Origin: Candidatus Rokuibacteriota bacterium
GTDB taxonomy: Bacteria; Methylomirabilota; Methylomirabilia; Rokubacteriales; CSP1-6
DNA length: 64,000 bases
Direction of reading: 5' to 3'
NCBI GenBank assembly: GCA_016184125.1
Contig: JACPDG010000042.1
Location: forward strand, 39,884 to 103,883
Shown here: positions 6,726 through 54,880 of the stretch, one piece after another
How the letters are laid out: each line of letters begins with the position of its first letter
How positions within the stretch are numbered: the first letter of the stretch is position 1
Notes under the pieces: generated by a model
The model's input: the letters and a program-made list of their open reading frames with translations, nothing else
Told to the model about the DNA's origin: nothing
Databases searched by the model: none
Position numbers and translations under genes: made by a program

Positions 6726-6737
6726 GGCGATCCTCCG

Positions 6738-12741: not shown

Positions 12742-13098
12742 CTAGTCCTGTTTCACGTCGAACAGGATCTGCGCGCGGTGCCAGTGTCCTCGATCGCCCT
12801 GTGGGCTGCCTCGAGCTGATGTCGGAGCTCCCCGGGCTCGGTCATGCCGGCGGGCGCTGTGCCAGTCCAGTGCCACGTCGATGACCACTCACCGCATTGC
12901 CGGGAAACTTCGCGGCGCCGTGGCGCAATCGCACGAAGCCGATGAGCCAAAGACCGGCGCTCGGTGCCGCTGCCGTGGGGAGCAGACGCCTCAAACGGGA
13001 CAGCGACACCCCGCTGCTAGCGGCGCGGCTGGGCGCGCGTGCGTGAATGGTTTACCACGCGCCGTGGCACCCTCATTGCTCCCCGAGGAAGCTTCACG
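12742..13098. other. Gene-poor spacer
   Basis: I see no supported gene here. Short minus-strand frames read into the hemA remnant but are interrupted by stops and show no recognisable motif. The right end carries the ribosome binding site (GAGGAAG) of the sensor kinase at 13099. Confidence 0.5.
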
Positions 13099-15692: not shown

Positions 15693-15714
15693 CGCGCGCT
15701 CGCCGAACCGAGAT

Positions 15715-15916
15715 CATGGGGGGACTATCGAAGCCCCCGACACTCGTACGAAGGGGGCTCACGCCCCCCTCTCACTCCCCCGGCCCCGCGCTCGGAGCGC
15801 CCCGCGGGGGGTGCGCGGACGCACCCGGGGGGTGCGCGGACGCACCCGAGGGGTGCGCGGACGCACCCGACAAAGCCGTGGCGCTCCTCGACCACCCGAT
15901 TCGTTCACGGGCTTTG
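15715..15916 (+). repeat. Family A repeat, copy 2
   Basis: This is the most complete copy. It begins CATGGGGGGACTATCGA, continues with a GC-rich section containing GCTCGGAGCGCCCC and then three 17-21 bp hairpin units based on GGTGCGCGGACGCACC. It ends with the GTGGCGCTCCTCGACCACCC block and CGGGCT. It is nearly identical in layout to copy 1 but inverted. It lies between the NtrC gene and the enhancer palindromes of the nanowire operon. Confidence 0.9.
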
Positions 15917-15931
15917 AGCTGCCGGCGCGTA

Positions 15932-15970
15932 CCGCACAGTGTGCGGCACACCTGTGCGGCAGCCCGCACA
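15932..15970. promoter_or_regulatory. Palindromic activator-binding sites (NtrC-type enhancer)
   Basis: Four 7-mer half-sites form two palindromes. CCGCACA, one base, TGTGCGG lies at 15932-15946; TGTGCGG, four bases, CCGCACA lies at 15953-15970. They are about 130-165 nt upstream of the predicted start of transcription at the sigma-54 promoter 16070, the usual enhancer distance. A related CGCACAGTCTGCGG lies at 16054-16067. The adjacent NtrC-type regulator is the natural candidate to bind here. Confidence 0.65.
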
Positions 15971-16069
15971 TCGAGACGAAAGACGGTCGTGTTCAGTTCG
16001 TTCGCTTCGCGCCACGCGGTGGCGCATCCGCGGGGACGCGGCCCACCACGTGACGCACAGTCTGCGGAA

Positions 16070-16084
16070 CGGCATCCGTCTTGC
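16070..16084 (+). promoter_or_regulatory. Sigma-54 promoter of the nanowire operon
   Basis: CGGCATCCGTCTTGC matches the -24/-12 consensus with GG and GC separated by exactly 10 nt and a TTGC -12 box. Transcription would start near 16096, 56 nt before the NHL-protein ATG. Enhancer-like palindromes lie upstream, and an NtrC-type activator gene ends 378 nt upstream. Confidence 0.75.
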
Positions 16085-16151
16085 GGTCCATGGTCAACGA
16101 CTCACCAGCTGGATCGTCAACGGAGGCCTCGCGGTCACGCGAGATGTCAGC

Positions 16152-17078
16152 ATGCGGCTCTGCATAACGTCCGCGATTCTCGGCGTCACCCTCGTCGCTG
16201 GCCCCGCTGCCGCGCAGTCTCTCAGGGCCGCGTACCTGTACACCCTCTCGGACTTCACCGGGTCGATTCGCGTCGACTGGTCGCGCGTCGCGGTGGATCG
16301 GCAGCGGAACGAGGTCTACGCGTTGCACCAGAACACCGTGCGGGTCTTCAACGAGTCGGGGATGGAGGTCTATCGCTTCGGCGACGATCTCGATATCGGT
16401 CACATCGTGGACGTCGCGGTGGACGATCGGGGCGACGTGTTCCTGCTCTCCTACCGGGACTCGAAGGCCGCCATCGTCCGCTGCAATTACCGGGGTGAGC
16501 TCCAGGCCCGGATCACGCTGAAGCGATTGCCGGCCGAGTTCTCCGACTTCGTCCCGAACCGCATGGTCTTCCAGCAGGGACGGTTCTTTCTGGCCTCCTC
16601 CAGCGGCCTCAAGATCGTGACCGCCGACCGCGACGGCCATTTCGTTGAGGGCTTCGACCTCGTGCCATTGCTCGACCTCGAGGAGCAGGACCGGGGCAGC
16701 GCCGAGCTCGGCGGGTTCAGCGTGGACCCGGCCGGCAACGTGTTGATGACGATCCCCGTCCTGTTTCGCGCATTCGTCATGTCACGCGATGGCACCGTCA
16801 CCGCGTTCGGCAGGGCGGGCAGCGCGCCCGGGCGGTTCAACATCGTCGGAGGCATCGCGAGGGACCGCGAGGGCAACGTGCTGGTGGTCGACAAGGCCAA
16901 GGGCGCGGTGCTGGTGTTCGACCCGACCTTGAAGTTCGTGAGCCAGTTCGCCACGCGGGGCTCCAAGCCGGGCCAGCTCCTCACCCCGGGCGATCTCGCG
17001 ATCGACGATCGCGGCACCGTGTACGTCACCCAGGCAGGCAAGCGAGGCGTCAGCGTCTTCCGGCTGACGCACGACTGA
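16152..17078 (+). CDS. Secreted NHL-repeat beta-propeller protein
   Basis: This is a 308-residue secreted protein with a Sec signal (residues 1 to about 22, ending AGPAAAQ). It is followed by about six blades of the NHL type, recognisable from repeated V(A/D)VDxxGxVxVxD-like strands such as VAVDDRGDVFLLSYR, FSVDPAGNVLMTIPV, IARDREGNVLVVDKA and LAIDDRGTVYVTQAG. It is the first gene of the omcS operon; Geobacter omcS also has an NHL gene next to it. A scaffold or assembly role for the extracellular cytochrome is inferred. A second NHL protein closes the operon at 29018. The ATG is the only start that leaves a clean signal peptide. Confidence 0.85.
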   Translation: MRLCITSAILGVTLVAGPAAAQSLRAAYLYTLSDFTGSIRVDWSRVAVDRQRNEVYALHQNTVRVFNESGMEVYRFGDDLDIGHIVDVAVDDRGDVFLLSYRDSKAAIVRCNYRGELQARITLKRLPAEFSDFVPNRMVFQQGRFFLASSSGLKIVTADRDGHFVEGFDLVPLLDLEEQDRGSAELGGFSVDPAGNVLMTIPVLFRAFVMSRDGTVTAFGRAGSAPGRFNIVGGIARDREGNVLVVDKAKGAVLVFDPTLKFVSQFATRGSKPGQLLTPGDLAIDDRGTVYVTQAGKRGVSVFRLTHD

Positions 17079-17186
17079 GGCCCATTCCCTATGACGACGA
17101 TGGAGGAGGTGGAGGAGGGCGCGACAGGACACGGACGCGGCGCACCCGCAAACGGGTTGCGGGCTCAACGAGAACGAAGGGAGACC

Positions 17187-18437
17187 ATGAACAGCATGAG
17201 ATGGGCTTTCGTCGCAGTACTCGCGGCGACACTCGTGGCCGCGGGAATGGTTGGAATCTCCTCGGCGTATCACTCGGGCGGCGCCGCCGAGTGCACCGGC
17301 TGCCACACGATGCACGGCAGCAACACCTACCTGCTGCAGGGCAGCGACCCGAGCTCCACCTGCCTGAACTGCCACCAGCACACCGGCGACACGGGCCCGA
17401 CCAGCTACCACTCCAGCACCGCCCCGGCCGACATGCCGGCTGGCGTTCCGCCCAAGCAGCGCGCGCCGGGCGGCGACTTCGGGTGGCTGAAGAAGACGTA
17501 CACCTTCACCCTGCGCGGCACGCCGACGACGGACGACGGCAACCTGTTCGGGCACAACATCGTCGCGGCCGACTACGGCTACGTCGTGGACCCGAACAAC
17601 GCGACGGCGCCCGGCGGGACGTTCCCGAGCGCCCAGCTCGGATGCACGAGCTGCCACGACCCGCACGGCCAGTACCGCCGCAACGCCAACGGGACGATCT
17701 CGAAGACGGGGGCGCCGATCGCCAACTCCGGGTCCTACGCCACCAGCGCCGAGCCCACGGCAACCTCGGCCGTCGGCGTGTACCGGCTGCTCGCCGGCGC
17801 CGGCTACACGAAGGGCGGCGTCACGTTCCTCGGCAACCCGGCGGCCAAGGTGCCCAGCAGCTACAACCGGACGGAAGCGGCGACCCAGACGCGTGTCGCC
17901 TACGGGCACGCGACCACCGGCGGCCACGTGTCCTGGGCCGACTGGTGCAAGACCTGCCATTCGAACCACGGCGCGTTCCCGCACCCGAACGACCAGCAGC
18001 TCGGGTCGACGATCGCCACGAACTACAACAGCTACGTGAAGACGGGCGACATGACGGGCACCGCCGCCACCTCGTTCACGTCGCTCGTCCCGTTCGTCGA
18101 GAACACGAGCGACTACACCGTCCTCGCGAGCCACGCGAAGAACGACAACACCTACCTGCAGGGCCCGAGCGGCGGGGACAGGATCACCTGCCTGAGCTGC
18201 CACCGGGCGCACGCGAGCGGGTGGAACCACGCGCTGCGGTGGAACATCGAGTACGAGTTCATGGTCTCGGGCACCTCCTGGTACGGGACGGACACGACCC
18301 CCGGCGACACCAATGCGAACAAGCACCGCGGGCGGACGTCCACCGAGACCGCCGCGGCCTACTACGACCGCCCGGCGACGCAGTTCGCCGAGGGGGGCCA
18401 GCGCCTGCTCTGCAACAAGTGTCACGCCAAGGACTAG
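17187..18437 (+). CDS. omcS: OmcS-like hexahaem nanowire cytochrome
   Basis: This secreted hexahaem cytochrome (416 residues) matches Geobacter sulfurreducens OmcS, which polymerises into extracellular conductive filaments. The signal ends GISSA, giving a mature N-terminus YHSGGAAECTGCHTMH; OmcS begins FHSGGVAECEGCHTMH. Haem sites are CTGCH, CLNCH, CTSCH, CKTCH, CLSCH and CNKCH, and the protein ends CNKCHAKD as OmcS does. Other shared blocks are CLNCHQHTGDTGP, PGGDFGWLKKTYT, APGGTFP, NRTEAATQTRVAYG and YTVLASHAK. Mature His16, which in OmcS ligates a haem of the neighbouring subunit, is conserved in the same place. The ATG has GAAGGGAG upstream. Haem count and sequence match are read directly; filament formation is inferred. 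Confidence 0.95.
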   Translation: MNSMRWAFVAVLAATLVAAGMVGISSAYHSGGAAECTGCHTMHGSNTYLLQGSDPSSTCLNCHQHTGDTGPTSYHSSTAPADMPAGVPPKQRAPGGDFGWLKKTYTFTLRGTPTTDDGNLFGHNIVAADYGYVVDPNNATAPGGTFPSAQLGCTSCHDPHGQYRRNANGTISKTGAPIANSGSYATSAEPTATSAVGVYRLLAGAGYTKGGVTFLGNPAAKVPSSYNRTEAATQTRVAYGHATTGGHVSWADWCKTCHSNHGAFPHPNDQQLGSTIATNYNSYVKTGDMTGTAATSFTSLVPFVENTSDYTVLASHAKNDNTYLQGPSGGDRITCLSCHRAHASGWNHALRWNIEYEFMVSGTSWYGTDTTPGDTNANKHRGRTSTETAAAYYDRPATQFAEGGQRLLCNKCHAKD

Positions 18438-18473
18438 GCCACCTCTTGACTCCGACCTCGGCGTGACTCGTGC

Positions 18474-18513
18474 GCGGAGGGCTGACGAGCCGATCAGCCC
18501 TCCGCCTTCTTGT
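18474..18513 (+). terminator. Intrinsic (attenuating) terminator after omcS
   Basis: A perfect 12-bp stem (GCGGAGGGCTGA and its complement, loop 8 nt) is followed by CTTCTTGT. It begins 36 nt after the omcS stop and before the next gene on the same strand. Partial termination here would give high expression of the filament subunit relative to the downstream conduit genes. Confidence 0.85.
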
Positions 18514-18577
18514 AGCTCGATCGGCAAACAAGCTCTTTGACTCATTGAGGTTGCGTCCCAACTTTCTCATTCTGTCC

Positions 18578-19981
18578 ATGGTGATTCGCCGTCGTTCCTG
18601 CGCGCTCCTCATCGGGTTGATCCTCACCGGTTGCCAGCCGAGCCTGCCCCAGCTCACCGCTCGCCTCGAGAACGAGGGCGCCGTCTACCTCTACCTGCAG
18701 CCCCTGCCACGTGAGGCGGAGCGCCTCCGGATGTCCATCGAGGCGGTTGCGGCCGTCCCTCGCGACGGCAGTGAACGCCCGATCCCGGTCTTGCTTCGCG
18801 AGCTCGCGGGCGAGGACGCGAGGCGGCAGCGGCTCCTTGCGGCAGGCGCTCTCCCGGCCGGTGACTACACCGGCTTCGCGATCCGGACCGGACGAGCATC
18901 TCTCCGAGGTGAAGCCGGGCGGTCGCCGGCGCCGGCGCCGGAGGCCGTCGCCAAGGTCGACTTCCCGTTCACGGTGCGCCGACGTGACGGTCAGGTCGTC
19001 CTGCTCACGCTCGACCCCGCCGAGTCCCGGAGCGGGGACCGGCTCGATCCGGTCTTCTCCGCCGCCGCGCCCCGGCGACCGGCCGTCGGCCACGTCGCGT
19101 TCGTCGCGAACAGCCGATCGAGCGACGTGACGGTGTTCGACAAGAAATCCCTGGACGTGTTCGATGTCGTCGTCACCGGCAGGCAGCCGGCCGGGATGGC
19201 GCTGGATCGGCGAGCCCGCAAGCTCTACGTGGCTCTCGCCGGCGACGCCGGCGTGGACGTCGTCGACGTCTTCGCTGGCCAGGTCACGGAGCGCTTCACC
19301 CTGACGCCGGGGGACGAGCCGGCCGCGCTCGCCCTCACACCGGATGGCCGAACGTTGCTGTCCGCCAATCGGGGCTCGAACACGGTCAGCATCCTCGATA
19401 CAGCCTCGGGGTTCGAGGTCGCCAGACTGCCCGTCGGCAACGGACCGCGATTCGTCGTCATCGACCCCACGGGACGCGGAGCGTTCGTCTTCAACTCGCT
19501 CTCGAACACGGTGTCGGTGATCGACATCGCGGGCCGGACCGCCGTGCGGACCATCGCGACGGACCCTGCGCCCGTGCAGGGCGCGTTCAGTCGCCGGGGC
19601 GACCGGCTCTGGGTGGTCCACGAGAGGACCGCGTTTGTCACCGTGATCAATCCCACGACGCTGGCCGTGACCGGACGGTTCGCGATCCGGTCGGCGATGG
19701 ACACGCTCGCGGTCGACCCCGGCACCGACGTCGTCTACGTCGGGGGGCGCCGCGAGTTCGCCGTCGGCGTCTACGATCCCCTCTCCTTCGCCGCGGTGGA
19801 CTTCATCGACACGGGCGCGGGCGTCGCCCACATCGCGGTCGACAGCGAGGAGAACGCGCTGTATTTCGTCAGCCCCGGCGCCAATCGCGTCCTGGTCTCC
19901 CACCGGGTCCGCAAGGGCGTGGTGGGCGCCATCGATGTCGGAGATGGCCCGGCCTGGGTCAGCCTCATGGGGGAGCGGTAG
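18578..19981 (+). CDS. YVTN-type beta-propeller lipoprotein
   Basis: This is a 467-residue lipoprotein with lipobox LILTGC at residues 15-20. An N-terminal domain of about 170 residues of unknown fold is followed by a seven-bladed YVTN/cytochrome d1-like propeller (about 180-460). Blade motifs include VANSRSSDVTVFD, VALAGDAGVDVVDV, LLSANRGSNTVSILD, FNSLSNTVSVIDI and YFVSPGANRVLVS. There is no haem motif. It ends 5 nt before the barrel gene. A surface or periplasmic scaffold role for the conduit is inferred. The ATG at 18578 is the first codon giving a lipoprotein signal; no strong ribosome binding site is visible. Confidence 0.82.
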   Translation: MVIRRRSCALLIGLILTGCQPSLPQLTARLENEGAVYLYLQPLPREAERLRMSIEAVAAVPRDGSERPIPVLLRELAGEDARRQRLLAAGALPAGDYTGFAIRTGRASLRGEAGRSPAPAPEAVAKVDFPFTVRRRDGQVVLLTLDPAESRSGDRLDPVFSAAAPRRPAVGHVAFVANSRSSDVTVFDKKSLDVFDVVVTGRQPAGMALDRRARKLYVALAGDAGVDVVDVFAGQVTERFTLTPGDEPAALALTPDGRTLLSANRGSNTVSILDTASGFEVARLPVGNGPRFVVIDPTGRGAFVFNSLSNTVSVIDIAGRTAVRTIATDPAPVQGAFSRRGDRLWVVHERTAFVTVINPTTLAVTGRFAIRSAMDTLAVDPGTDVVYVGGRREFAVGVYDPLSFAAVDFIDTGAGVAHIAVDSEENALYFVSPGANRVLVSHRVRKGVVGAIDVGDGPAWVSLMGER

Positions 19982-19986
19982 CTGCG

Positions 19987-22266
19987 GTGCGCGCCCCCCG
20001 GCAGGCGGCCCCGGCTCTCGTCGGCGTCGCGATGCTCTGCGTGACGTCGGCCCGTCCGGCGCGGGCGGATGGACTGCTGGATGGCATCAACGTCAGAGAG
20101 GAAGCGGTCTACAGCCTCTTCTCGAGCAAGACGAGGGATGCCCTGACGGGGCTCCGGACGACCAGCGAGACGGAGAGCTACGGGACCAAGACGAACGTCA
20201 GGCTCAACTACTCGCTCCTGCCGAAGCTCCACCTCAACGCCGGCGGCACCTACGAGAAGGACTTCTCGAATCTGTCAGCCGACCCGATCGACCTGGAGAC
20301 GAACGTCACGAGGTTCCGGCCGTACGGCTGGCTGACGCTCCGCGATCCGGTGCTCGGCGCCTCGGTCGGCTACGACCTCGCGGACGAGACGGTCAAGAGC
20401 TCGGGGCGACCGGAGACCTCGCTGACCCGGGAGACGTACAACGCGCACCTGGAGTGGAAGCCGATCGAGCTCCCGTGGACGCAGGTGCGGTACACGCGCA
20501 CCTCGGTCGAGGACGAGCCGAACGTGACGCTGGACAACCGCCAGGACCTGGTGTTCCTCAAGTCCGAGTATCTCTACAAGGGGCTCAACGCCTACTATGC
20601 CGGCACGTACCTGACCACGACCGACGAGCTCCGGGACCTCGGCTCCACGCAGTGGTCGCACGAGGGGAAGCTGCTGTACGCGATCACCTTCCTCGCCGAC
20701 CGCATCGCGCTGACGACCGACCACCGGATCCGCTTCACGGACGTCACCACCGATGTTCCCCTCCGGGTCACCGGGCTGGAGCAGACGGTCGAGGTGGCGC
20801 TCGTCCCGGCGAGGGGTCTCTCCTCGCTCGACGACACACCGGCGGACACGCCGCTGGACTCCACCCCGGCACTGATCGACGGCAACACGACGGTGAGCGC
20901 GAGCGCCACCCTCAACATCGGGTCGGACCGGGGCCTGGCGGGGGATTTCACGCGGCGGAACGTGGGGCTCGAGTTCAGGCCGCCCGCGGCCGTGAACCGG
21001 CTCCACGTCTCGGTCGACGTGCCGGCTCTGCCGAGCAACGAGAACCTGCCCTCGGACATCTCGAGCTCGTTCCTGTGGGAGATCTACACGAGCCGGGACA
21101 ACAGCACCTGGACACTTCACGCGACGGTCGTCGGGAGCTTCGGGCCGTTCGTCCGCCGCTTCGAGCTCACCTTCCCGACGGTGACGGCAAACTTCATCAA
21201 GGCCGTCACCCGACCGCTCTCCGGCGGCGTCATCGGCACGACGAACTCGAGTGACGCGAGATACCGCACCATCGTCATCACCGAGGTGCAGGCATTCGCC
21301 GACCGGGCCGCCCCGCCCGGTGTCGGGAAGCAGCGTATCAGCCAGACGCTCCGGACCCACAACCTGGACGTCAGGGCCGCCCTGTTCCGGTCGCCGTCGC
21401 TCTACTACCAGTTCAACGCCGACTACCAGGAGCTCGAGCTCGACGACGACGTGCAGGAGCGATACGCCATCTCGAACGGCCTGTTCTTCACGCATCGCTT
21501 CAACCCGGTCCTCTCCACGAACGTCAATACCTCGATCGAGTTCGGGCGAGAGCGCGAGGAGCCCCGGACGGCGGCCCTCTACTACGCGTCGCTCGCCGCC
21601 ACGCCGCTCCCGACCCTGACCGACAGCCTCGTCTTCAGCGGCAACCAGCAGCGGGTGGGATCCGCGACGGCGCGGAGCCACTCCATCGTCCTCTACAACA
21701 CCGCGCAGCTCTACCGGGGGCTCGACGCCAGCCTGAACCTCGGCGCCGCGCTCACGTCGGACGAGGAGGGCGGCCGCGTGCTGTCCCGGCGGCGGGATCT
21801 GTACGTGAACGTCGGGACGTCGATCACGCCCCATCCCACCTTCGCGACGACGGTCTACTACCTCGGCAGGCTCTCGAACTTGTCGGGCAGCAACCTCGGC
21901 CGGACCCGGGACACGACCGACCACCGGCTCGATCTGAGCGCGTCGTTCACCCCTGTCCGGACGCTGGTCCTGTCGGCCGCCACGAGCATCGTCGCGGAGA
22001 CGGACCGGGACACGACCACGACGCAGAATTACGGGGTGAGCTGGGCGCCGTTCCCCGATGGCACGCTGCAGTTCTCGGTCTTCTACGCCGAGAACCGCCT
22101 CCCCGAGGAGCTGACCTCACGGATCATCCAGCCCGTCGTCCGCTGGTACGTCAATGCCAGACGGCGGTCGTACCTCGAAGCCAACTATCAGCTCAATACC
22201 ACCGAGGCGGCCTCGATCAAGACCGACTCGCAGGTCGTCAGCGCGCGACTGACCATTGATTTCTGA
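19987..22266 (+). CDS. Outer-membrane beta-barrel protein, candidate electron-conduit porin
   Basis: This is a 759-residue protein starting at GTG, with a Sec signal (about residues 1-27) and long alternating hydrophobic/polar strands. Examples are TNVRLNYSLLPKLHLNAGGTY, SVFYAENRLPEELTSRI and the final SARLTIDF. The C-terminal Phe is typical of barrels inserted by BamA. A central segment (about 270-430) looks like a beta-sandwich insert rather than strands of the barrel. There are no haem motifs. It is flanked by omcS, a propeller lipoprotein and 26- and 16-haem cytochromes, exactly the company expected for a porin-cytochrome conduit. It is larger than OmbB/PioB-type barrels as I remember them, and I cannot assign it to a named family. 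Confidence 0.82.
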   Translation: MRAPRQAAPALVGVAMLCVTSARPARADGLLDGINVREEAVYSLFSSKTRDALTGLRTTSETESYGTKTNVRLNYSLLPKLHLNAGGTYEKDFSNLSADPIDLETNVTRFRPYGWLTLRDPVLGASVGYDLADETVKSSGRPETSLTRETYNAHLEWKPIELPWTQVRYTRTSVEDEPNVTLDNRQDLVFLKSEYLYKGLNAYYAGTYLTTTDELRDLGSTQWSHEGKLLYAITFLADRIALTTDHRIRFTDVTTDVPLRVTGLEQTVEVALVPARGLSSLDDTPADTPLDSTPALIDGNTTVSASATLNIGSDRGLAGDFTRRNVGLEFRPPAAVNRLHVSVDVPALPSNENLPSDISSSFLWEIYTSRDNSTWTLHATVVGSFGPFVRRFELTFPTVTANFIKAVTRPLSGGVIGTTNSSDARYRTIVITEVQAFADRAAPPGVGKQRISQTLRTHNLDVRAALFRSPSLYYQFNADYQELELDDDVQERYAISNGLFFTHRFNPVLSTNVNTSIEFGREREEPRTAALYYASLAATPLPTLTDSLVFSGNQQRVGSATARSHSIVLYNTAQLYRGLDASLNLGAALTSDEEGGRVLSRRRDLYVNVGTSITPHPTFATTVYYLGRLSNLSGSNLGRTRDTTDHRLDLSASFTPVRTLVLSAATSIVAETDRDTTTTQNYGVSWAPFPDGTLQFSVFYAENRLPEELTSRIIQPVVRWYVNARRRSYLEANYQLNTTEAASIKTDSQVVSARLTIDF

Positions 22267-22291
22267 CGTGCCCCGGGGGAGGTGCCGAACG

Positions 22292-22870
22292 ATGCGAATC
22301 ACGACTCGTAGCGCCCTGCTGGTGTGCCTGCTCGCCCCGCTCCTCGCGGCGTGCGGCCCGGTCGTCACGAGGGACTCCTACCGCGACAAGAACATGGATT
22401 TCGCGGCGATCCAGACCGTCGGCGTGATGCCGTTCCAGAACCTCTCGCGCGACACGCTCGCCGCGGAGCGAGTCCGCGACGTGTTCATCAACCGGTTGCT
22501 GTCCACGGGCGCGGTCTACGTGGTGCCCGTCGGCGAGGTGGCCCGAGCCGTGGCGCGGGCCGAGATCCAGTCCCCGATCACCCCCGCCCCCGACGACGTG
22601 ATCAGGCTCGCCGGACTCCTGAAGGCTCACGCCATCATCACCGGGGCGGTCCAGGAGTACGGAGAGGCCCGATCAGGGGTGACCTCCGCCAACGTGATCT
22701 CCGTCAGCGTGCAGATGCTGGAGGGTCAGACGGGACGGATCGTGTGGACGGCGTCGTCCACGAAGGGCGGCGTCAACTTCTTGGACCGCCTGTTCGGAGG
22801 CGGCGGCCGCCCGATGGAGGGGGTGACGCGAGACGCCGTCAACGACCTCATCGCGAAGCTGTTCGAATAG
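22292..22870 (+). CDS. LpoB/CsgG-like lipoprotein
   Basis: This is a 192-residue lipoprotein with a clear lipobox (LLAAC at about residues 17-21) and a strong GGGGGAGG ribosome binding site. The mature part has the pattern of the LpoB/CsgG/DUF799 fold: VGVMPFQNLSRD, then RVRDVFINRL, HAIITGAVQEYGE and VSVQMLEGQTGRIVWTASST. Such proteins support outer-membrane or envelope assembly. Here it probably assists the barrel and cytochrome complex. It is paralogous in fold to the larger lipoprotein that follows. The exact family is uncertain. Confidence 0.78.
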   Translation: MRITTRSALLVCLLAPLLAACGPVVTRDSYRDKNMDFAAIQTVGVMPFQNLSRDTLAAERVRDVFINRLLSTGAVYVVPVGEVARAVARAEIQSPITPAPDDVIRLAGLLKAHAIITGAVQEYGEARSGVTSANVISVSVQMLEGQTGRIVWTASSTKGGVNFLDRLFGGGGRPMEGVTRDAVNDLIAKLFE

Positions 22871-22874
22871 ACTC

Positions 22875-24059
22875 GTGGTCACCGCGGCGGAGCCGTCGGT
22901 CAGGAAGGGCCATTCGTTCCGCGTCGTAGCGGGCGCCCTGCTCGCGTCGGTCGCGCTCTACGCATCCGGGTGCGCCGCGGTCCCGATGCTGGCGGGCACC
23001 GAGCCTCGCGTCCAGAGCGTGCCGTACCGGATCGCCGTGTTCCCGGTGGAGAACCTCTCGGGCAGGGCCGCTCCGCTCGGCGACATCCGTGGACTGCTCG
23101 TGGACCGACTCGCGGCCCACGGCTTGGCGACGGTGGACGACCAGACCCTGGAGCAGGTCCTCTCGAGACACCGTGTTCGATACACCGCCGGCGTGGAACG
23201 GGAGCTGGCGAAGGCGCTGAAGGAGGAGACGGGGGCCGGCGCGGTCCTCGTTCCGTCGCTGGAGCACTACGACGACGTCACCCCGCCGCGCGTGGCCGTC
23301 TTCGCGCGACTGGTCTCGACCGGCGACGACCCCCGGGTCCTGCACGTCGCCGGCGCCGGCGTTGCCGGAGACGAGGCCCCCGGCCTGCTCGGGATGGGGC
23401 TCGTCGACGACCCTCGCGCGCTCCTGACACGCGTCGTCGACTCCCTGGCGACCTCGCTCGCCGCGCGGGAACCGGGCGCCGAGAGCCACCCGACGGGAGC
23501 ACGGGCCCCCGCCAAGTTCGCGCCGAAGATCGCCTACCGCTCCGCCGCCCTGGACGCCCGCCGGACGTACTCCGTGGCGGTGGTGCCGTTCTTCAACAAG
23601 AGCGCCAGGAAATACGCCGGCGAGATCGTCTCCCTCCACATGATCCGGAGTCTCATGGCGTCGGGGCGCCTCGCCGTGGTCGAGCCGGGCGTCGTGCGGG
23701 CGGAGCTCTTGCGGTCCCGGGTCATCATGACCGACGGGATCTCGCTGTCCGACACCGACACGATCCTCAACGCCGTCGATGCCGACCTGGTGCTGAACGG
23801 CGAGGTGCTGGAGTATCGAGAACCCCGGGGATCGGGGTCGCCGAGGGTCGACTTCTCGGTCCTGGTCATCGAGCGAACGACCCGCCGCGTCGTGTACAGC
23901 GCGTCCAGCCACAATGCCGGCGACGACAGGGTCTTCTTCTTCGACTGGGGTCGCGTCGCCACCGGGCATGCCCTCACGGCGCAGATGAGTCGGGCCGTCA
24001 CGGAACGGATGCTCTCCGCGCCCGCGACCCCGGCGGCTCGCCGATGGGCGCCGCGGTGA
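22875..24059 (+). CDS. Two-domain LpoB/CsgG-like lipoprotein
   Basis: This is a 394-residue lipoprotein starting at GTG, with a signal ending ASGC (Cys at about residue 33). Two related domains follow. The first begins RIAVFPVENLSGRAAP and the second YSVAVVPFFNKSARKYAG; both match the start of LpoB/CsgG-type domains. The second contains VDADLVLNGEVLEYRE and VVYSASSHNAGDD strands. It sits 4 nt after the smaller paralogue and overlaps the isomerase gene by GTGA, so it belongs to the same transcription unit. A role in assembling or anchoring the outer-membrane conduit is inferred. Confidence 0.78.
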   Translation: MVTAAEPSVRKGHSFRVVAGALLASVALYASGCAAVPMLAGTEPRVQSVPYRIAVFPVENLSGRAAPLGDIRGLLVDRLAAHGLATVDDQTLEQVLSRHRVRYTAGVERELAKALKEETGAGAVLVPSLEHYDDVTPPRVAVFARLVSTGDDPRVLHVAGAGVAGDEAPGLLGMGLVDDPRALLTRVVDSLATSLAAREPGAESHPTGARAPAKFAPKIAYRSAALDARRTYSVAVVPFFNKSARKYAGEIVSLHMIRSLMASGRLAVVEPGVVRAELLRSRVIMTDGISLSDTDTILNAVDADLVLNGEVLEYREPRGSGSPRVDFSVLVIERTTRRVVYSASSHNAGDDRVFFFDWGRVATGHALTAQMSRAVTERMLSAPATPAARRWAPR

Positions 24060-25741
24060 GATCCCCGATGAGAAGCCATGCGGTCCCGGCGGCGTTCGGC
24101 CTCGCGCTCGTCGTGCTGACCGCCGCCACGAGCGCCGCGCAGGGCCTGCCAGTCTTCAAGGGGAAGACGATCGTCGCGATGGTGCAGGGGGAACCGATCA
24201 CGCTCGACGAGCTCAACCGGCAGGTGGCCGCCATGAAGCGCGACCGGGCGCCCGGCGCGGCGGCCGACAGACGGGCGGAGCTCGCGCTGCTCGACCGCAT
24301 GGTCTACGCCCTCCTCATCACGCAGGAAGCCCGGCGCATGGGGTTCGACAGGCTGCCTGAGCTCCGCAAGATGCTCGACTCCCATGCGCGGGTGGCGCTC
24401 CGTCAGGAGCTCGTCGACTGGATCGTGAAGGACGTCCAGGCGGATGCGAAGCAGGTCGAGGAACGGTACCGGGCCTCCGTGCGGGAATGGACCGTCAGCG
24501 CCGCCCTCTTCGACGACGAGAAGCACGCGGAGGCCATGGCGGCCGAGGTCAGCGCGGGCAGGGACTTCGGCGACGTCGCCAGGACCTATCTGGCCGCGGG
24601 GAAAGCGGCGAAGGTGGATGTCGGACTCGCGCTCAAGCGGCAGGTGATGGACCCGGCGATCGGCAACGCGGTCGCCACCATGGCCGTGGGCTCGATCAGC
24701 CCGGTGATCGCCACGAAGTCGGGGTTCGTGCTCGTCAGGCTCGACGACGTCCGGTACCCGGACGATGCGGCGGCGAGAGCCGCGGCCGAGGACGCGGTCC
24801 TCCTCGACCAGCGGAAGGAAGCGGTGGCCGCATTCGATCGCGCGCTCAAGCAGAAGTACGTGAAGATCCATGGTCAGGTGCTCGAGAGCCTCGATTACGA
24901 GGCGCCAACGCCGGGGATCGAGGCGCTCATGAAGGACCACCGCGCGCTCGCGGACATCAGGGGCGAGAAGCCGATCACCGTGGGCGACCTGACCGAGGAG
25001 CTGAAGTTCACGTTCTTCCACGGCACGGCCATGGCCATCGAGCGAAAGACGTTGAACGCCAGGAAGACGCAGCTCCTCGACGGCATGCTGCACCGGCGCG
25101 TCTTCCGGAAAGAGGCCCTGCGTCTCAAGCTCGACAGGACCGACACCTACAAGGCCAGGCTCAAGGACTACGAGCAGTCCGTGCTGTTCGACCTGGTCGT
25201 GCGCAAGGCCATCGCGCCGGACGTCAAGCTCGACGAGAAGCAGCTCGAGGCGTATTACGACCGGCACAGGAACGACTACAGCCGGCCCGAGATGATGCGG
25301 ATCAAGAGCCTCGTCTTCGGGACCAGGCCCGACGCCGAGCGCACGCTGGAGTCGCTCAGGACCGGAGCCGATTTCCAGTGGGTCGCGGGCCGAGCCGACG
25401 GCCAGCTTCCCCCGGGCACGAAGGGGGTCCACGTCTTCGACGGCAAACCGATCATGACCGCCGAGCTGCCCGAGGGCGTCCGGAAAGCCGTCGCCGGAGC
25501 GAAGGCCGGCGACGCGCGCCTGTACGCAAGCCCCGAGAGCCACTTCTACGTGCTGGCGGTCCAGCAGGTCGTCGCGGCGAGCCCCCAGCCCTACGAGGAG
25601 GTCAGGGCCGAGATCGTCGAGCGGGTGTGGAAGGTGGAGCTCGAGAAGGCCGTGAAGGCGTACGCGGAAAAGCTCATGTCCCTCTCGGACGTCGAGATCT
25701 ACCTGAAGGCGCCGCCGGCGCACATCGGGTCGGCGCCGTGA
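24056..25741 (+). CDS. SurA-like periplasmic peptidyl-prolyl isomerase
   Basis: This is a 561-residue periplasmic chaperone and isomerase. After a signal ending TSAAQG it has a SurA N-type helical domain (VQGEPITLDELNRQVAAM, ALLDRMVYALLITQEARRMG). A first parvulin-like domain (about 140-260, FGDVARTYL, SPVIATKSGFVLVRLDDV) and a second in the C-terminal half (RIKSLVFGTRPDAE, LYASPESHFYVLAVQQV) follow. The GTG at 24056 overlaps the upstream stop; an ATG at 24068 is also possible. It precedes two very large cytochromes, so its likely clients are the barrel and the cytochrome polypeptides during folding and haem attachment. Confidence 0.85.
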   Translation: MRSPMRSHAVPAAFGLALVVLTAATSAAQGLPVFKGKTIVAMVQGEPITLDELNRQVAAMKRDRAPGAAADRRAELALLDRMVYALLITQEARRMGFDRLPELRKMLDSHARVALRQELVDWIVKDVQADAKQVEERYRASVREWTVSAALFDDEKHAEAMAAEVSAGRDFGDVARTYLAAGKAAKVDVGLALKRQVMDPAIGNAVATMAVGSISPVIATKSGFVLVRLDDVRYPDDAAARAAAEDAVLLDQRKEAVAAFDRALKQKYVKIHGQVLESLDYEAPTPGIEALMKDHRALADIRGEKPITVGDLTEELKFTFFHGTAMAIERKTLNARKTQLLDGMLHRRVFRKEALRLKLDRTDTYKARLKDYEQSVLFDLVVRKAIAPDVKLDEKQLEAYYDRHRNDYSRPEMMRIKSLVFGTRPDAERTLESLRTGADFQWVAGRADGQLPPGTKGVHVFDGKPIMTAELPEGVRKAVAGAKAGDARLYASPESHFYVLAVQQVVAASPQPYEEVRAEIVERVWKVELEKAVKAYAEKLMSLSDVEIYLKAPPAHIGSAP

Positions 25742-27681
25742 ACCGCCTGCTCCTCGGCGTGCTCATCGGTGTCTCGGCGCTGCTGCTGTCCGCATGTGTC
25801 GAGGTGCAGCAGCGCGTGCGCATGGTGCAGAAGGATTGCCTCGAGTGCCACAAGACCTTCACGGAGGTCTCCGCGGGGATGGCCAGCGTCCATCCCACGG
25901 TGAAGGCGAAGCAGTGCGAGAGCTGCCATCTGCGGCACGGTCTCATCGCCAAGGCCGTCATGAAGAAGGACGGCAACGACCTCTGCGTGCAGTGCCACGC
26001 CAAGGACAAGATCGGCCTGAACAAGAAGCACGTGCACACGGCCATCGACAAGCGCCGGTGCACCGCGTGCCATGACCCCCACGCCTCTCGAACGAGCCAC
26101 CTCCTGAAGGCATCGGGCGACGAGCTCTGCTACCGGTGCCACGACAAGGCGAAGCATCAGCGGACGGTCGTGCACGCCGCCTCGCCGGCGCAGGGCTGCC
26201 TCGCCTGCCATGCCGCCCACAGCGCCGACCAGAAGGACCTGTTGCGCGCGGAGCCTGTCGCCCTGTGCCTGTCCTGCCACGTGGCGACGAGCGCCGAATT
26301 CGGCGAAGCCCACGGCGGCTATCCCGTCGAGAAGGGCGAGTCCTGCGCAGGGTGCCACAACCCGCACTCCTCCGCGCAGGCGAAGCTCCTGAAGACGAGC
26401 GCTCACGGCCCCGTCGCGACCGGTCAGTGCGAGAGTTGCCACCAGGCGGCCTCGTCCGCAACGCCGTTCAAGACGCTGGACGCACCGGACACGCTGTGCG
26501 CCACCTGCCACGATTCCGCGACCCTGAGGGCGGGCGGTACGGTCGACCACCTGCCGTTCAAGGATGGCGCGTGCACCGCGTGCCACGCGCCTCACGCCTC
26601 CGAGTTCACGAAGCTCACCGTCACGAGCGTCACCCGACTCTGCACGACGTGCCATCAGGACATGGCCGAAACGGTCTCGGTGACGCACGCGCCGCTGGCC
26701 GGCGAACGCGGGTGCCTCTCGTGCCATCCGCCGCATTCCGCAAAGCTCAAGAAGCTGCTGAACCAGGCGGAAGGGCCGCTCTGCTTCTCCTGCCACCCGA
26801 CGACCAGGCAGGGACTCGAGAGCAAGGTGGCCCATGCGCCGTTCGCCGGAGAGGAATGCAGCACGTGTCACGACGCGCACGGCGCGAACGCGAAGTCCCT
26901 CGTCCGCGACCGTCTCGATCGCGTCTGCTACAGCTGCCACCCCGAGACGGGAGCCAAGTTCCTCACCACGTACACGCACGGCCCGGTCGCGGAGGGCACG
27001 TGCAACGCCTGTCACGCCGCCCATGGTGGGAGCGAGGCGAAGCTGCTGAAGGCGACCGGCGGCCAGCTGTGCGTGCAGTGCCATGGCGACTTCATGAAGC
27101 CGGCGGCGGACGGCACGAATCACGACCCGTTCGCCGGCGGCATGTGTCTCGACTGCCATGACCCGCACGGCAGCAATCTCAAGGGCATGACGTCCAAGGC
27201 CCAGGCGGCGCTCTGCTCGTCGTGTCACGAGATCCAGAAGCCCGGCGAGGCGACGAAGACCACGCACCGCCCGGTCGAGGCGTCGCAGTGCACGGAGTGC
27301 CACAACCCGCACAAGGCGCGGCTGAAGGGGCTCCTGCGCGCCCGGACGCCCGACCTCTGCCTGACATGCCACAAGGACCTGAAAGAGCGAATGGAGAAGG
27401 AACGGGCGCATCAGCCCGCCGCGAAGGATTGCCAGCGCTGCCACACGCCACACGCCTCGGCGCAGGATGCGCTGCTCAGGGAGGCGCTCCAGCCGACGTG
27501 CCTCGGCTGCCACGCGCCCGGGCAACCGGCGTTCGCCAAGGCCCACCTCGGGATCGATCCGGGGGCGATGAATTGCCGGCAATGCCACGACCCGCACGCC
27601 TCGAACGATCCGAAGCTCTTCAAGGCGAACGTCCACGTGCCGTTCGCGGCCGGCGCGTGCGACGAGTGCCACACGCGATGA
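25738..27681 (+). CDS. 26-haem c-type cytochrome lipoprotein
   Basis: This is a 647-residue lipoprotein (lipobox LLSAC, Cys20) with 26 CXXCH motifs that I counted one by one, from CLECH near residue 33 to CDECH at the C-terminus. Most lie in tandem repeats of about 45-55 residues of the form CxxCHxPHxS...LC.xCH, i.e. doubled-CXXCH units. A long linear haem chain tethered to the outer membrane is implied. It starts at GTG overlapping the isomerase stop and overlaps the 16-haem gene by ATGA. As I recall, the Geobacter omcS neighbourhood also contains a 26-haem cytochrome (GSU2495). Most likely this is the main electron wire through or beside the barrel. Confidence 0.93.
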   Translation: MNRLLLGVLIGVSALLLSACVEVQQRVRMVQKDCLECHKTFTEVSAGMASVHPTVKAKQCESCHLRHGLIAKAVMKKDGNDLCVQCHAKDKIGLNKKHVHTAIDKRRCTACHDPHASRTSHLLKASGDELCYRCHDKAKHQRTVVHAASPAQGCLACHAAHSADQKDLLRAEPVALCLSCHVATSAEFGEAHGGYPVEKGESCAGCHNPHSSAQAKLLKTSAHGPVATGQCESCHQAASSATPFKTLDAPDTLCATCHDSATLRAGGTVDHLPFKDGACTACHAPHASEFTKLTVTSVTRLCTTCHQDMAETVSVTHAPLAGERGCLSCHPPHSAKLKKLLNQAEGPLCFSCHPTTRQGLESKVAHAPFAGEECSTCHDAHGANAKSLVRDRLDRVCYSCHPETGAKFLTTYTHGPVAEGTCNACHAAHGGSEAKLLKATGGQLCVQCHGDFMKPAADGTNHDPFAGGMCLDCHDPHGSNLKGMTSKAQAALCSSCHEIQKPGEATKTTHRPVEASQCTECHNPHKARLKGLLRARTPDLCLTCHKDLKERMEKERAHQPAAKDCQRCHTPHASAQDALLREALQPTCLGCHAPGQPAFAKAHLGIDPGAMNCRQCHDPHASNDPKLFKANVHVPFAAGACDECHTR

Positions 27682-29015
27682 CCGGACGACAGGTGAGCGT
27701 GACGGTGTTCTGGGTGACCCTCGGCGCCATCCTGCTGCCGTGGCTGGCGACGCCGGTCGCCGACGGCAACGAGAAGTTCCGGTTGAAGCCGGGCGCCGAA
27801 GGCAAGCTCTGCCTCGACTGCCATTCGGACTTCACGCTGAAGCTGAAGAGCCGGTTCGTCCACACCCCGGTGAAGACCGGGAACTGCACCGGGTGCCACA
27901 GCCCGCACACCTCCGCGCACGGCAAGCTCCTGTCCGCGTCGACGCGCTCCATCTGCCTGACGTGCCACGAGGACGTCCTCCCCGAGAAGGCGCGCAGCGC
28001 GCACAGACCCGTCATCGAGGGCCGGTGCGGCACGTGCCACGATCCGCACGCGTCGAGCTACAAGGGCAATCTCTCGAAGAACGGCAACGAGCTGTGCGTC
28101 GGCTGCCACACGACCGTCGTCGACACGGCGGCGAAGGCCAAGTTCCCGCACCTGCCGGTCTCCGATGGCTGCCTGGACTGCCACAACCCGCACGCTTCGA
28201 CCGCGGCCACGCGCCTGCTCAGGAGCCCCCTGCCGGCGCTCTGCATCGAGTGCCACCAGCCGGACGCGGGCTTCACGAAGCAGCACGGCGGCTACCCGGT
28301 CGGGACGGCGAACTGCGTGTCGTGCCACGCCGCGCACGGGTCGAACACGCGCGGCATCCTGTTCGACACCGTCCACGCGCCCGTGGCCGGCAAGGCCTGC
28401 ACGCAGTGCCACAACCCGCCGACGGCGGCTCAGCCGTTCGCCACGACGCGGACGGGCTTCGAGCTCTGCCGCGGGTGCCACGGCAAGACGATGAACGAGA
28501 CGTTCGGCAAGACCCGCGTGCACTGGCCCCTGCTGGACAAGACCGGGTGCCTGAACTGCCACGAAGCCCACGCGTCGCGAAAGCCCAAGCTGCTGAATGT
28601 CGACGAGGCGGCCCTGTGCGGGCGGTGCCATGGAGAGACGACGGCGTTCCAGCGGCGACTGACCGAGAAGGCCAAGCAGGAAAAGCCGCGCTCGAAATCG
28701 CGCGTGGAGATCGGCTCGCTGACCCACGACCCGGTCCAGCGCGGGACCTGCTCGGCGTGTCACTCGCCCCACGCCTCGAACAGCACCCGGCTGCTAAATC
28801 AGGAGTCGACCGTCGAGCTGTGCGGCGGGTGCCACGACTGGCTGAAGCACGAATCGCACCCGATGGGCGAGAGGTACCGGGACAAGCGGAGCAAGAACCT
28901 CTCCGTCGACTGTCTGAGCTGCCACCGGTCGCACGGCACGGGCTACCGGTACCTGATCGCGTTCCCGACGCCGACCGAGCTCTGCGTCCAGTGCCACAAG
29001 CAGCAGAAGAGGTGA
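27678..29015 (+). CDS. 16-haem c-type cytochrome
   Basis: This is a 445-residue secreted multihaem cytochrome. The signal is at about residues 1-29 (FWVTLGAILLPWLATPVADG). I counted 16 CXXCH motifs, from CLDCH to CVQCH near the C-terminus, many in doubled-CXXCH units (CxxCHxPHAS) like those of the upstream 26-haem protein. The two are therefore paralogous in repeat type but differ in membrane attachment. It overlaps its neighbours by ATGA upstream and ends 2 nt before the NHL gene. It probably bridges the periplasmic carriers and the outer-membrane cytochrome. Confidence 0.92.
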   Translation: MTGRQVSVTVFWVTLGAILLPWLATPVADGNEKFRLKPGAEGKLCLDCHSDFTLKLKSRFVHTPVKTGNCTGCHSPHTSAHGKLLSASTRSICLTCHEDVLPEKARSAHRPVIEGRCGTCHDPHASSYKGNLSKNGNELCVGCHTTVVDTAAKAKFPHLPVSDGCLDCHNPHASTAATRLLRSPLPALCIECHQPDAGFTKQHGGYPVGTANCVSCHAAHGSNTRGILFDTVHAPVAGKACTQCHNPPTAAQPFATTRTGFELCRGCHGKTMNETFGKTRVHWPLLDKTGCLNCHEAHASRKPKLLNVDEAALCGRCHGETTAFQRRLTEKAKQEKPRSKSRVEIGSLTHDPVQRGTCSACHSPHASNSTRLLNQESTVELCGGCHDWLKHESHPMGERYRDKRSKNLSVDCLSCHRSHGTGYRYLIAFPTPTELCVQCHKQQKR

Positions 29016-29017
29016 CC

Positions 29018-29926
29018 GTGCGAAGACTGGTCGGCTCGCTGCTGATCATCGGCTCGCTCGCCGGGCTCGGCCACGACGCGATGGCCGCCCAGGCCGGCCG
29101 GCTTCGCTATCTCGCGGCGGTCTATCTCGACGATCAGGGCCATGGCATGCGGCAGCCGGAAGCCGTCGCCTGCAACGACAGGTCGGCCCTCGTCGTCGCG
29201 GATACCGGCGGAGGCCGGCTGCTGCGGTACACCGTCGGCGACTGGGACGCGAAACCGGCCGGCGAGATCCGCGCGCCGGAACTGTCGCTCCCCGTCAGGG
29301 TCCAGATGAACTCGAAGGACGAGGTCTTCGCACTGGACGGCGCCCGGCGCCGAGTCGTCCGGTTCAACGCGAACGGCACGTTCAAGGGCTATCTCGCGCC
29401 CGAAGGGATCCCGGCGCCGGCGAGCGTCGTGCCGCGCAGCCTGGCCATCGACCGGAACGACACCATCTATCTCCTCGACATCTTCTCGGCACGGGTGCTC
29501 GTGCTCGACCCGAACGGCCGGTACGTGCGCGCGGTCCCCTTCCCGAAGGACCACGGGTTCTTCTCGGACGTCGCGGTCGACAGCCGGGGCACGATCTATC
29601 TCGTGGACTCGATCACCACCACGGTCTACGCCACACGGAAGAGCCCGGGGGAGTTCGCCCCGCTGGCCAAGAGCCTCCGGGCGCACGTGACCTTCCCGAC
29701 CTCGATCGTCGTCGACGGTCGCGGCATCATCTACGTCGTGGATCAGGCCGGGGGCGGCATCGTGCTGCTCGATCGCGACGGGACGGTGCTCGGGCGGCAG
29801 CTCGCCATGGGCTGGAACGAGGGGCTGGTCCGGTCTCCATCGCAGCTCTGCATCAACGACAAGGGACAGGTGTTCGTCGCCGATCGAGGGAACAGCAGGG
29901 TCCAGATCTTCTCGATCGCGCGATAA
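29018..29926 (+). CDS. Secreted NHL-repeat beta-propeller protein
   Basis: This 302-residue protein has a Sec signal (about residues 1-23, ending DAMAAQ) and NHL blades. Motifs are AVACNDRSALVVADTGGGR, LAIDRNDTIYLLDIFSARV, VAVDSRGTIYLVDSITTTV, IVVDGRGIIYVVDQAGGGI and CINDKGQVFVADRGNSRV. It is the last gene of the conduit operon and related to the NHL protein at 16152. I chose the GTG at 29018 because AGAGG lies about 6 nt upstream; a GTG at 29012 would overlap the previous stop. Assembly or attachment of extracellular cytochromes is the inferred role. Confidence 0.85.
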   Translation: MRRLVGSLLIIGSLAGLGHDAMAAQAGRLRYLAAVYLDDQGHGMRQPEAVACNDRSALVVADTGGGRLLRYTVGDWDAKPAGEIRAPELSLPVRVQMNSKDEVFALDGARRRVVRFNANGTFKGYLAPEGIPAPASVVPRSLAIDRNDTIYLLDIFSARVLVLDPNGRYVRAVPFPKDHGFFSDVAVDSRGTIYLVDSITTTVYATRKSPGEFAPLAKSLRAHVTFPTSIVVDGRGIIYVVDQAGGGIVLLDRDGTVLGRQLAMGWNEGLVRSPSQLCINDKGQVFVADRGNSRVQIFSIAR

Positions 29927-29938
29927 CGCGCGCCGTCG

Positions 29939-30595
29939 ATGAGCCGCCGCGCGGCTTCCGCGATCCGCCTCGTCCCGCCCGCGCTCTTCGCAGCAGGAAT
30001 CGTGGCCCTCGTGGTGGCGGTGTACTGGCACGTCGGGAGTTTCGGGTTCCTCGAGTGGGACGATGGCCGCTACGTCGTCGAGAACCCCGAGGTGCGCCGC
30101 GGACCGACGACCCGCGGCCTCGTGTGGGCCTTCACGACGCTGCACGCCTCGAACTGGCACCCGGTGACGTGGCTCTCGCACATGCTCGACGTGGCGGTGT
30201 TCGGCCTCGACGCCGGCTGGCACCACCGCGTCAACGTCGCCTGGCACGCGGCGAACTCCGTGCTCCTGTTCTTCCTGCTGCGCGCCTCGACCGGCTCCGC
30301 GTGGCGCAGCGCATTCGCAGCGGCGCTGTTCGGGGTCCATCCGCTCAACGTCGAGTCCGTGGCCTGGGTCGCCGAGCGCAAGAACGTCCTGAGCACCTTC
30401 TTCTGCTTTCGGATCAGCCCGTCCTCGCCATGGAGGCCGTCGCGCGCCTTCACACCCTCAACCCGGCACGGGCGACGGCGCTCACGACGGCGATCCGCGA
30501 GGGGCGACGGCATGCACGCTGACGCTCAGCGCCTCCTCCAGTCGCTGGGGAACCCGTACCCCACCGCCGACCCGCTCCCGCCTCAGCATCCCTGA
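29939..30595 (+). pseudogene. Truncated membrane glycosyltransferase/TPR protein
   Basis: The first 150 residues match the N-terminus of large membrane proteins that carry C-terminal TPR repeats: FLEWDDGRYVVENPEV, NWHPVTWLSHMLDVAVFGLD, HPLNVESVAWVAERKNVLST. Such proteins usually exceed 500 residues. After NVLSTFFC the frame becomes nonsense. Two bases out of frame the sequence reads AMEAVARLHTLNPARATA and ends at TGA 30522, which looks like the C-terminal TPR end of the same gene. The middle is therefore missing through an internal deletion. The gene is not expected to be functional. Confidence 0.75.
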
Positions 30596-30645
30596 GTCAA
30601 TCGATCCACGCGGCGCCTTTCCAGCTACTTACACGTGCCCCCGTC

Positions 30646-30660
30646 TGGCATATCAGTTGC
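30646..30660 (+). promoter_or_regulatory. Sigma-54 promoter
   Basis: TGGCATATCAGTTGC is a full match to TGGCAY-N5-TTGC with 10 nt between GG and GC. It lies 42 nt before the ATG of the redox protein at 30702. Together with the other copies it suggests a shared sigma-54 regulon in this window. Confidence 0.78.
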
Positions 30661-30701
30661 CTGATCCGCGGTGGGCCACACGCTCCAAGGAGGTGCAACG
30701 C

Positions 30702-31178: not shown

Positions 31179-31200
31179 CGCCGCGCCAACGCGGCGGTTC

Positions 31201-54825: not shown

Positions 54826-54880
54826 GCGGTGCCCTCCCATTCGCATGCAATGTCCCCGGGGCGTCGTCGCGATGGTGGCG

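Follow-up and report, generated by a model that had tools for sequence, protein, structure and literature searches.

Does a bacterium outside Geobacter carry a complete set of genes for making an OmcS-type cytochrome filament and connecting it to the cell? The question is raised by a 64,000-nucleotide stretch of a Candidatus Rokuibacteriota genome (4.09 Mb, 92.8% complete), which is part of contig 71 and is referred to here as the window. Ten genes, all on the plus strand, lie at 16152-29926 (see the table), and we put at about 75% the probability that they constitute an osc/oet-type cluster, in which a predicted OmcS-family filament subunit is combined with likely folding and export helpers and a 26-/16-haem route through the outer membrane.

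An earlier note on this DNA had described a nanowire and conduit operon at 16070-29926, with its genes on one strand and overlapping by 4 nucleotides. The place is nearly right, although 16152 is a more probable start for the first gene than 16070. The single strand also stands; however, overlaps of 4 nucleotides occur at only two of the nine junctions (prolyl isomerase/26-haem and 26-/16-haem), and the other seven are gaps of 2, 4, 5, 8, 25, 108 and 140 nucleotides. Sequence evidence and, for the barrel, a structure model bear out the listed barrel, propellers, lipoproteins, SurA-like isomerase and 26- and 16-haem cytochromes, and the conduit and assembly set beside the OmcS-family gene is of the osc/oet type. 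The osc names used here for window genes are based on gene order; the one-to-one match is presumed from position.

Features of the window, with the ten-gene cluster first and its surroundings below
Feature	Coordinates	Strand	Evidence or remark
Secreted NHL beta-propeller	16152-17078	+	NHL match
OmcS-family hexahaem cytochrome, predicted filament subunit	17187-18437	+	6 CXXCH; OmcS E 1.1e-121; aligned histidines kept
Terminator-like hairpin of conserved sequence	18474-18505	+	12-bp stem, after subunit gene
YVTN-type beta-propeller lipoprotein, OscD-like by position	18578-19981	+	YVTN repeats, lactonase-type propeller; lipobox LTGC
Predicted outer-membrane beta-barrel, OscE/OetI-like, start uncertain	19987-22266	+	AlphaFold2 model, Foldseek
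Galactose-binding-like (F5/8C, CBM32) insert in barrel	20785-21309	+	domain matches of family members
Lipoprotein with PelC/GNA1162-like domain, OscF-like by position	22292-22870	+	profile matches; lipobox LAAC
Lipoprotein with two tandem domains, OscG-like by position	22875-24059	+	
SurA/PpiC-type prolyl isomerase, OscH-like by position	24068-25741	+	Rotamase_2 9.7e-25, SurA_N
26-haem cytochrome lipoprotein, OetB-like	25738-27681	+	exactly 26 CXXCH; lipobox LSAC
16-haem cytochrome without lipobox, OetA-like	27678-29015	+	exactly 16 CXXCH
Secreted NHL beta-propeller, last gene of cluster	29018-29926	+	NHL 1.3e-15
Histidine kinase, possible regulator	13039-14334	+	HATPase_c 1.3e-26, HisKA
NtrC-type sigma-54 response regulator, possible regulator	14271-15692	+	NtrC/AtoC-type models below cut-offs; GAFTGA present
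NapC/NirT-type 8-haem protein	867-1964	-	candidate inner-membrane partner
9-haem / b561-like / 13-haem gene set	5673-9216	-	candidate inner-membrane partners
GGGTGCGTCCGCGCACCC repeat arrays	12274-12355, 15805-15869, 43953-44033, 58149-58286		

Judged by its sequence, the product of 17187-18437 is an OmcS-family hexahaem cytochrome and would likely form electron-carrying filaments. A phmmer search of this protein against all PDB chains returned OmcS (6ef8/6nef) with 410 bits, in an alignment spanning the whole length (query 28-416, chain 1-407); the sole other row at E <= 10 was a cytochrome c7 (E 0.054), with neither OmcE nor OmcZ among the rows at that threshold. The likeness to OmcS claimed in the earlier note is thus upheld, and the search that it proposed against all three filament cytochromes leaves OmcS as the only significant match. 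In an alignment of 170 homologues, the window protein and OmcS have the same residue in 217 of the 374 columns that they share (58%). Six CXXCH motifs are near-universal in these homologues and all are present in the window protein, as are all six of the non-CXXCH histidines (OmcS mature positions 2, 16, 110, 147, 257 and 335) that are kept in 167-170 rows. Another histidine, at OmcS 247, is found in 155 of the 170, and we therefore do not claim exactly six ligands. The position of His16, which we take to be the ligand that links subunits, is kept in 167 rows. According to the literature, which is cited here and below from excerpts, one OmcS histidine coordinates a haem of the next subunit. 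Among 7996 database candidates scored, 3982 proteins matched the subunit at E <= 1e-10, including an OmcS-family protein of a Candidatus Rokubacteria genome.

It can be envisioned that the hexahaem protein is instead a relative of OmcS that does not polymerise, comparable to OmcT or the product of GSU2501, and that it serves the conduit as a cytochrome on the cell surface. The tree is in keeping with this idea, since it places the window protein apart from any specific grouping with G. sulfurreducens OmcS, but the degree of identity, the retention of the His16 position and the single copy found in the window genome all speak for a true subunit, and we consider a non-polymerising protein improbable.

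The genes around the subunit recur with it. We compared 51 named OmcS loci (L numbers) from 43 distinct genomes, of which L035 and L042 overlap on one contig; the NCBI phylum labels in the trees come from submitters' titles. The order OmcS-YVTN-barrel-lipoprotein-lipoprotein was found on one strand in 22 of the 51 loci, so that the recurrence of gene order for which the earlier note had suggested looking is present in many genomes; in L023, the OmcS-to-lipoprotein block is on the other strand. The first NHL propeller, OmcS and the YVTN gene follow one another in 23 of the 51. The run from the YVTN gene continues into the isomerase in 18 loci and into the 26-haem gene in 14, and in 12 only the cytochrome is visible. 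At the genome level, the barrel (E <= 1e-10) accompanies OmcS in 40 of the 43 genomes and the 26-haem gene (E <= 1e-60) in 38. The barrel was not found in the genomes of L004, L024 and L050, nor the 26-haem gene in those of L006, L009, L024, L040 and L050; L004, L006, L009 and L050 sit on contigs of 3-7 kb, and the contig of L040 stops near its isomerase. Haem numbers are also conserved: with incomplete frames and frames more than three motifs off dropped, 21 of 22 distinct 26-haem orthologues have exactly 26 CXXCH (L019 has 25) and all 11 of the 16-haem orthologues have 16, while the L047 26-haem orthologue, outside the kept set, has 25.

The order is not rigid, and the cluster comes apart into sub-modules. 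In L018, L019, L029 and L033, the isomerase/26-haem unit is divergent from the OmcS/barrel/lipoprotein unit (L033 is cut before the 16-haem gene). Two genomes of the same family as the window genome, G015 and G042, which correspond to loci L002 and L005 and are titled Candidatus Rokubacteria, have a 26-haem/16-haem/propeller unit that faces the remaining genes across an inserted gene. The 26- and 16-haem genes at first seemed to be lost from these two loci, but both lie just outside the stretches compared, past that inserted gene and on the opposite strand.

The AlphaFold2 model of the barrel (pLDDT, the predicted local distance difference test, 84.3; predicted template modelling score 0.64) has about 28 long strands, and the top Foldseek row is MtrB (6r2q_B, E 1.9e-9) with a template modelling score of only 0.32. 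The insert carries a profile match to CBM32 (E 0.0026); PF22633 was matched in 13 and PF00754 in 10 of 29 family members, with neither matched in the window barrel itself, and this galactose-binding-like domain could touch glycans. Both neighbouring lipoproteins have PelC-like domains, the OscF-like one matching the profiles of PelC (9h80, E 1.5e-7) and GNA1162 (2.2e-6).

The barrel might be an electron conduit only, holding the 16-haem cytochrome as MtrB holds MtrA, with OmcS leaving the cell elsewhere, for example by a pilin-dependent pathway. The strand number and the weak MtrB match fit such a role, OetI has been assigned as the porin between OetA and OetB (Murali et al., PMC10553843), and pilin-dependent export in Geobacter is discussed in PMC12307469, where export of OmcS-type filaments is still called speculative. 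Against this stands the company that the barrel keeps: in Nitrospirota L018, L019, L029 and L033 and in Rokubacteria L002 and L005, it shares a strand with OmcS and the lipoproteins, and the 26-haem gene (with the 16-haem gene where held) is on the other. In addition, the PelC-like domains beside the barrel suggest export, and OscE, OscF and OscG are reported as proposed secretion proteins (PMC13194489). A conduit-only barrel thus seems to us unlikely, though less so than a non-polymerising subunit.

For the osc/oet-type cluster that we favour, we infer the following course of polymerisation, export, electron flow and transcription. The isomerase would help OmcS to fold in the periplasm, and the OscF- and OscG-like lipoproteins, which together have three PelC/CsgG-type domains, would form a ring at the periplasmic opening of the barrel and pass OmcS through or onto it. 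Outside the cell, the OmcS-family protein would polymerise into a haem-chained filament, in which the histidine aligned with His16 would link haems between subunits. The periplasmic 16-haem protein and the 26-haem lipoprotein would connect periplasmic carriers with the filament by passing electrons across the membrane. Finally, most transcripts would end at the hairpin behind omcS or be trimmed back to it, leaving subunits to outnumber machines.

The stem of the hairpin begins 37 nucleotides past the omcS stop codon and contains the core GGGCYGG...CCRGCCC. Over 49 loci, the best 40-nucleotide fold in the 100 nucleotides after omcS was on average 7.1 kcal/mol better than base-shuffled sequence (by more than 5 in 25 of them), compared with +0.2 to -1.6 kcal/mol at the ends of five other cluster genes. 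Perfect stems of at least 8 pairs were present at 21 of 50 omcS ends (window included), and 17 of these 21 contained GGCYGG or GGGCYG, against 13 of 232 stems at other places in these loci, among which stems behind omcS paralogues are also counted. Most core stems (25 of 31) start 19-54 nucleotides behind a frame with 5-8 haem motifs. When stems of at least 7 pairs were taken from the window and the 51 loci, the core was found in 28 of 53 behind frames with 3-8 haems and in 9 of 725 elsewhere. A model built from 24 aligned examples matched 40 places in 1 Mb at E <= 0.5; of the 16 matches outside the training set, eight lay behind a 3-8-haem frame, a zone that makes up 1.15% of the bases, and eight elsewhere. 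In the window's own genome, the model gave three weak other matches but missed the copy in the window itself; this search was therefore not exhaustive. By plain count, a terminator scan of the region was not above chance (4 against 5.3 expected), and folding of the entire 140-nucleotide gap reaches only z -2.0. We met no mention of the hairpin in excerpts of the literature on the cluster, no literature search having been aimed at it.

Such a stem could simply be an ordinary terminator or a mobile stem-loop, carried along with omcS by duplication and transfer without any separate function. T-rich tails are seen in many copies, and the hairpin also stands behind tandem omcS paralogues (L032, L033), as duplication would give. 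Yet in the 24 aligned examples, the core (GGC.G/C.G.C) is invariant under seven phylum labels (Rokuibacteriota, Nitrospirota, Myxococcota, Acidobacteriota, Thermodesulfobacteriota, Schekmaniibacteriota and Pseudomonadota; two rows are unlabelled and one is the window), whereas the outer stem, loop and flanks vary. Most of these rows were picked for perfect core-bearing stems, and their pairing statistics are therefore not independent evidence. Among terminator-like stems, moreover, the core is found in 20 of 30 behind 3-8-haem frames but in only 1 of 35 others from the same loci (Fisher 1.8e-8, rows not independent). We regard an ordinary hairpin as a possibility to be taken seriously, if not the likelier one, and tuning of the subunit/machine ratio by the conserved hairpin as a role that it may have.

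Another genome of the window's family, G031, has the YVTN gene, a barrel 22-24% identical, both lipoproteins, the isomerase and the 26- and 16-haem genes, with neither NHL propeller found in this platform; an extra frame with eight CXXCH overlaps the YVTN-barrel stretch. In the place of OmcS, at the head of the platform, are two hexahaem proteins of 343 and 361 amino acids (L068:159-1190 and 1162-2247). Of 7994 proteins scored against the 343-residue protein, 1145 match it at E <= 1e-10; 111 of the 120 matches listed have six CXXCH and were aligned, and the nine others were dropped. Histidines align with OmcS 2, 16, 110, 147, 257 and 335 in 106-111 of the 111, and the two G031 proteins keep twelve aligned histidines. 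In an alignment-free comparison, five of six checks hold in 105-111 of the 111 proteins, but the GHx(I/V) motif around His110 in only 4, though that histidine aligns in all 111. Identity to OmcS is about 22-30%. For the L068:159-1187 protein, OmcS was absent from the rows at E <= 1, and for its neighbour it came up at just E 0.013; kinship with OmcS therefore rests on the alignment of haem motifs and histidines and on a tblastn match at 1e-12 that is inflated by haem motifs. The excerpts of the literature on the cluster contain no mention that we met of these proteins or of their place in the platform, and a six-haem Apc2a is mentioned in PMC10553843. The compact OmcS-like family offers new filament candidates.

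Taken together, the hairpin and G031 lead us to a tentative proposal, rather less than evenly weighted: nanowire operons may share a cross-phylum RNA hairpin that sets the number of subunits per machine, and a platform on which the subunit can be swapped, carrying OmcS in three genomes of the family and, in one more, a pair of compact OmcS-like proteins. These would belong to a large second class of predicted filaments, in which the same haem ligands are kept at about 26% identity. Several observations weigh against the osc/oet-type scheme favoured above. No perfect stem of at least 8 pairs lies within 150 nucleotides of 29 of the 50 omcS copies, and the compact proteins of G031 have no core stem behind them. 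The score of the barrel's MtrB match is low and siderophore receptors are close behind, and the barrel could be a conduit, an exporter or both. Structure predictions cover the barrel and the OscG-like protein, the subunit being tied to OmcS by sequence. Within its G. sulfurreducens group, wire formation is known for OmcS alone, and the physiological role of OmcS filaments is disputed (PMC11077965).

The host is likely a Rokubacteria member, in agreement with the earlier suggestion of a different lineage from that of Geobacter. Of the 57 genomes in the window's family, 4 have the barrel and 3 of these 4 also have OmcS (E <= 1e-30), which no other genome of the family showed (3 of 99 relatives overall); the trait is therefore patchy. 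The 26-haem gene was found in 3 of 60 relatives searched, and G042, outside those 60, carries it as well. That the cluster is transferable, as also suggested, is plausible from the seven phylum labels and this sparse occurrence; on the other side, the three canonical Rokubacteria barrels form one clade, the window grouping with L002 and L005 with support of 100. In the literature covered, with PMC13264449, PMC6295460 and PMC7005843 among the papers on Rokubacteria, we met no report of the cluster in this lineage, although Shen et al. 2025, with "widespread and ancient" in the title, may cover it; one ImcH homologue has been noted in Candidatus Rokubacteria (PMC6295460).

The surroundings of the cluster may supply its electrons and its control. 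Contig 71 holds 25 of the genome's 29 paired-CXXCH matches, most within the two large cytochromes, and 5 of its 10 cytochrome-c7 matches, and thus looks like an electron-transfer island. The NapC/NirT-type protein and the 9-haem/b561-like/13-haem set are candidates for the quinol oxidation that feeds the conduit. Downstream of the cluster, 31102-33264 encodes a polyferredoxin-like membrane protein (Fer4_5), and by eye a similar protein also follows the G031 platform. The same contig encodes an aldehyde ferredoxin oxidoreductase (52936-54846) and alpha and beta subunits like those of type II dimethyl sulphoxide reductases (58603-63360; NCBIfam scores below cut-off). Judged by eye, L005 also has a kinase and a response regulator upstream of the cluster, and L002 has a kinase there. 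The L002 and L005 sensor kinases, likewise judged by eye (L002:5461-6999, L005:5396-6931), have C-x4-CH in their N-terminal part, possibly a haem sensor; the window kinase has neither CXXCH nor C-x(3-5)-CH. Matches to the sigma-54 -24/-12 promoter (72 with up to three mismatches, against 84.5 expected) were not above chance, and searches returned no sigma-70 promoter in 15400-31200, no Rfam match and no tRNA as an integration site. A repeat with 7-bp inverted arms (GGGTGCGTCCGCGCACCC) forms 21-nucleotide tandem arrays, one of them immediately upstream of the cluster; the genome has 267 matches with at most one mismatch, against none for a reversed control pattern.

Several known systems resemble this cluster or parts of it. 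The PelB-PelC exopolysaccharide exporter likewise combines a barrel with PelC-type lipoproteins, PelC being a dodecamer according to PDB titles; the window differs in having two different lipoproteins, one with two such domains, and no PelB similarity was shown for its barrel. No mention of the PelC-like domains was met in the excerpts of the literature on the cluster. The operon of SEEP-SRB1 (Skennerton et al. 2017, PMC5539420) has a core of isomerase, 26-haem, 16-haem and six-bladed propeller genes, with homologues in Geobacter and Anaeromyxobacter, that is also found in the window; that paper suggested that the four proteins of these seep sulphate reducers are not membrane-attached, whereas the window's 26-haem protein has a lipobox. 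In the OetABI conduit of syntrophic sulphate reducers (Murali et al. 2023, PMC10553843), found with OmcS/OmcX, OmcS adjoins in the position of G. sulfurreducens omcS/omcT. The window shares with it a periplasmic cytochrome, a barrel and a cytochrome lipoprotein beside an OmcS-like gene, the 26-haem protein having a lipobox, the 16-haem protein lacking one and the barrel resting on a model. That work maps the trait on Desulfobacterota, unlike the Rokubacteria considered here and the loci labelled Nitrospirota, Acidobacteriota, Myxococcota and others.

Another close relative is the osc (omcS companion) cluster of Geobacter sulfurreducens (Shen et al. 2025, cited via PMC12977616, PMC13194489 and PMC12307469). 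The eight-gene block GSU2500-GSU2493, which follows the omcS-like GSU2501, has been linked to OmcS maturation and secretion (PMC12977616), and the proposed Geobacter roles are folding for OscH, secretion for OscE/F/G and morphology for OscD (PMC13194489). The window likewise has eight genes from the YVTN gene to the last propeller, in the same order after an omcS-like gene, and L034-L039 and L049 agree as far as their stretches reach. Geobacter sp. L1geo (L035) and Geomobilimonas luticola (L049, likely the G. luticola of that paper) share the order OmcS-D-E-F-G-H-26 and are among the genomes that PMC12977616 names for these neighbourhoods. The window differs in having one omcS and no second hexahaem copy, in its lineage and in its G+C content of 70%. 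The cluster type is not new, since these four lines of work (PMC12977616, PMC13194489, PMC5539420 and PMC10553843) had already described it; the window adds a host lineage and a patchy distribution within it. The retention of the cluster in distant lineages, its separable sub-modules and the PelC-like lipoproteins by the barrel provide a short list of testable export parts. What makes this locus interesting is its host, a platform whose subunit may be swapped and the conserved hairpin, which lends itself to a simple transcription experiment.

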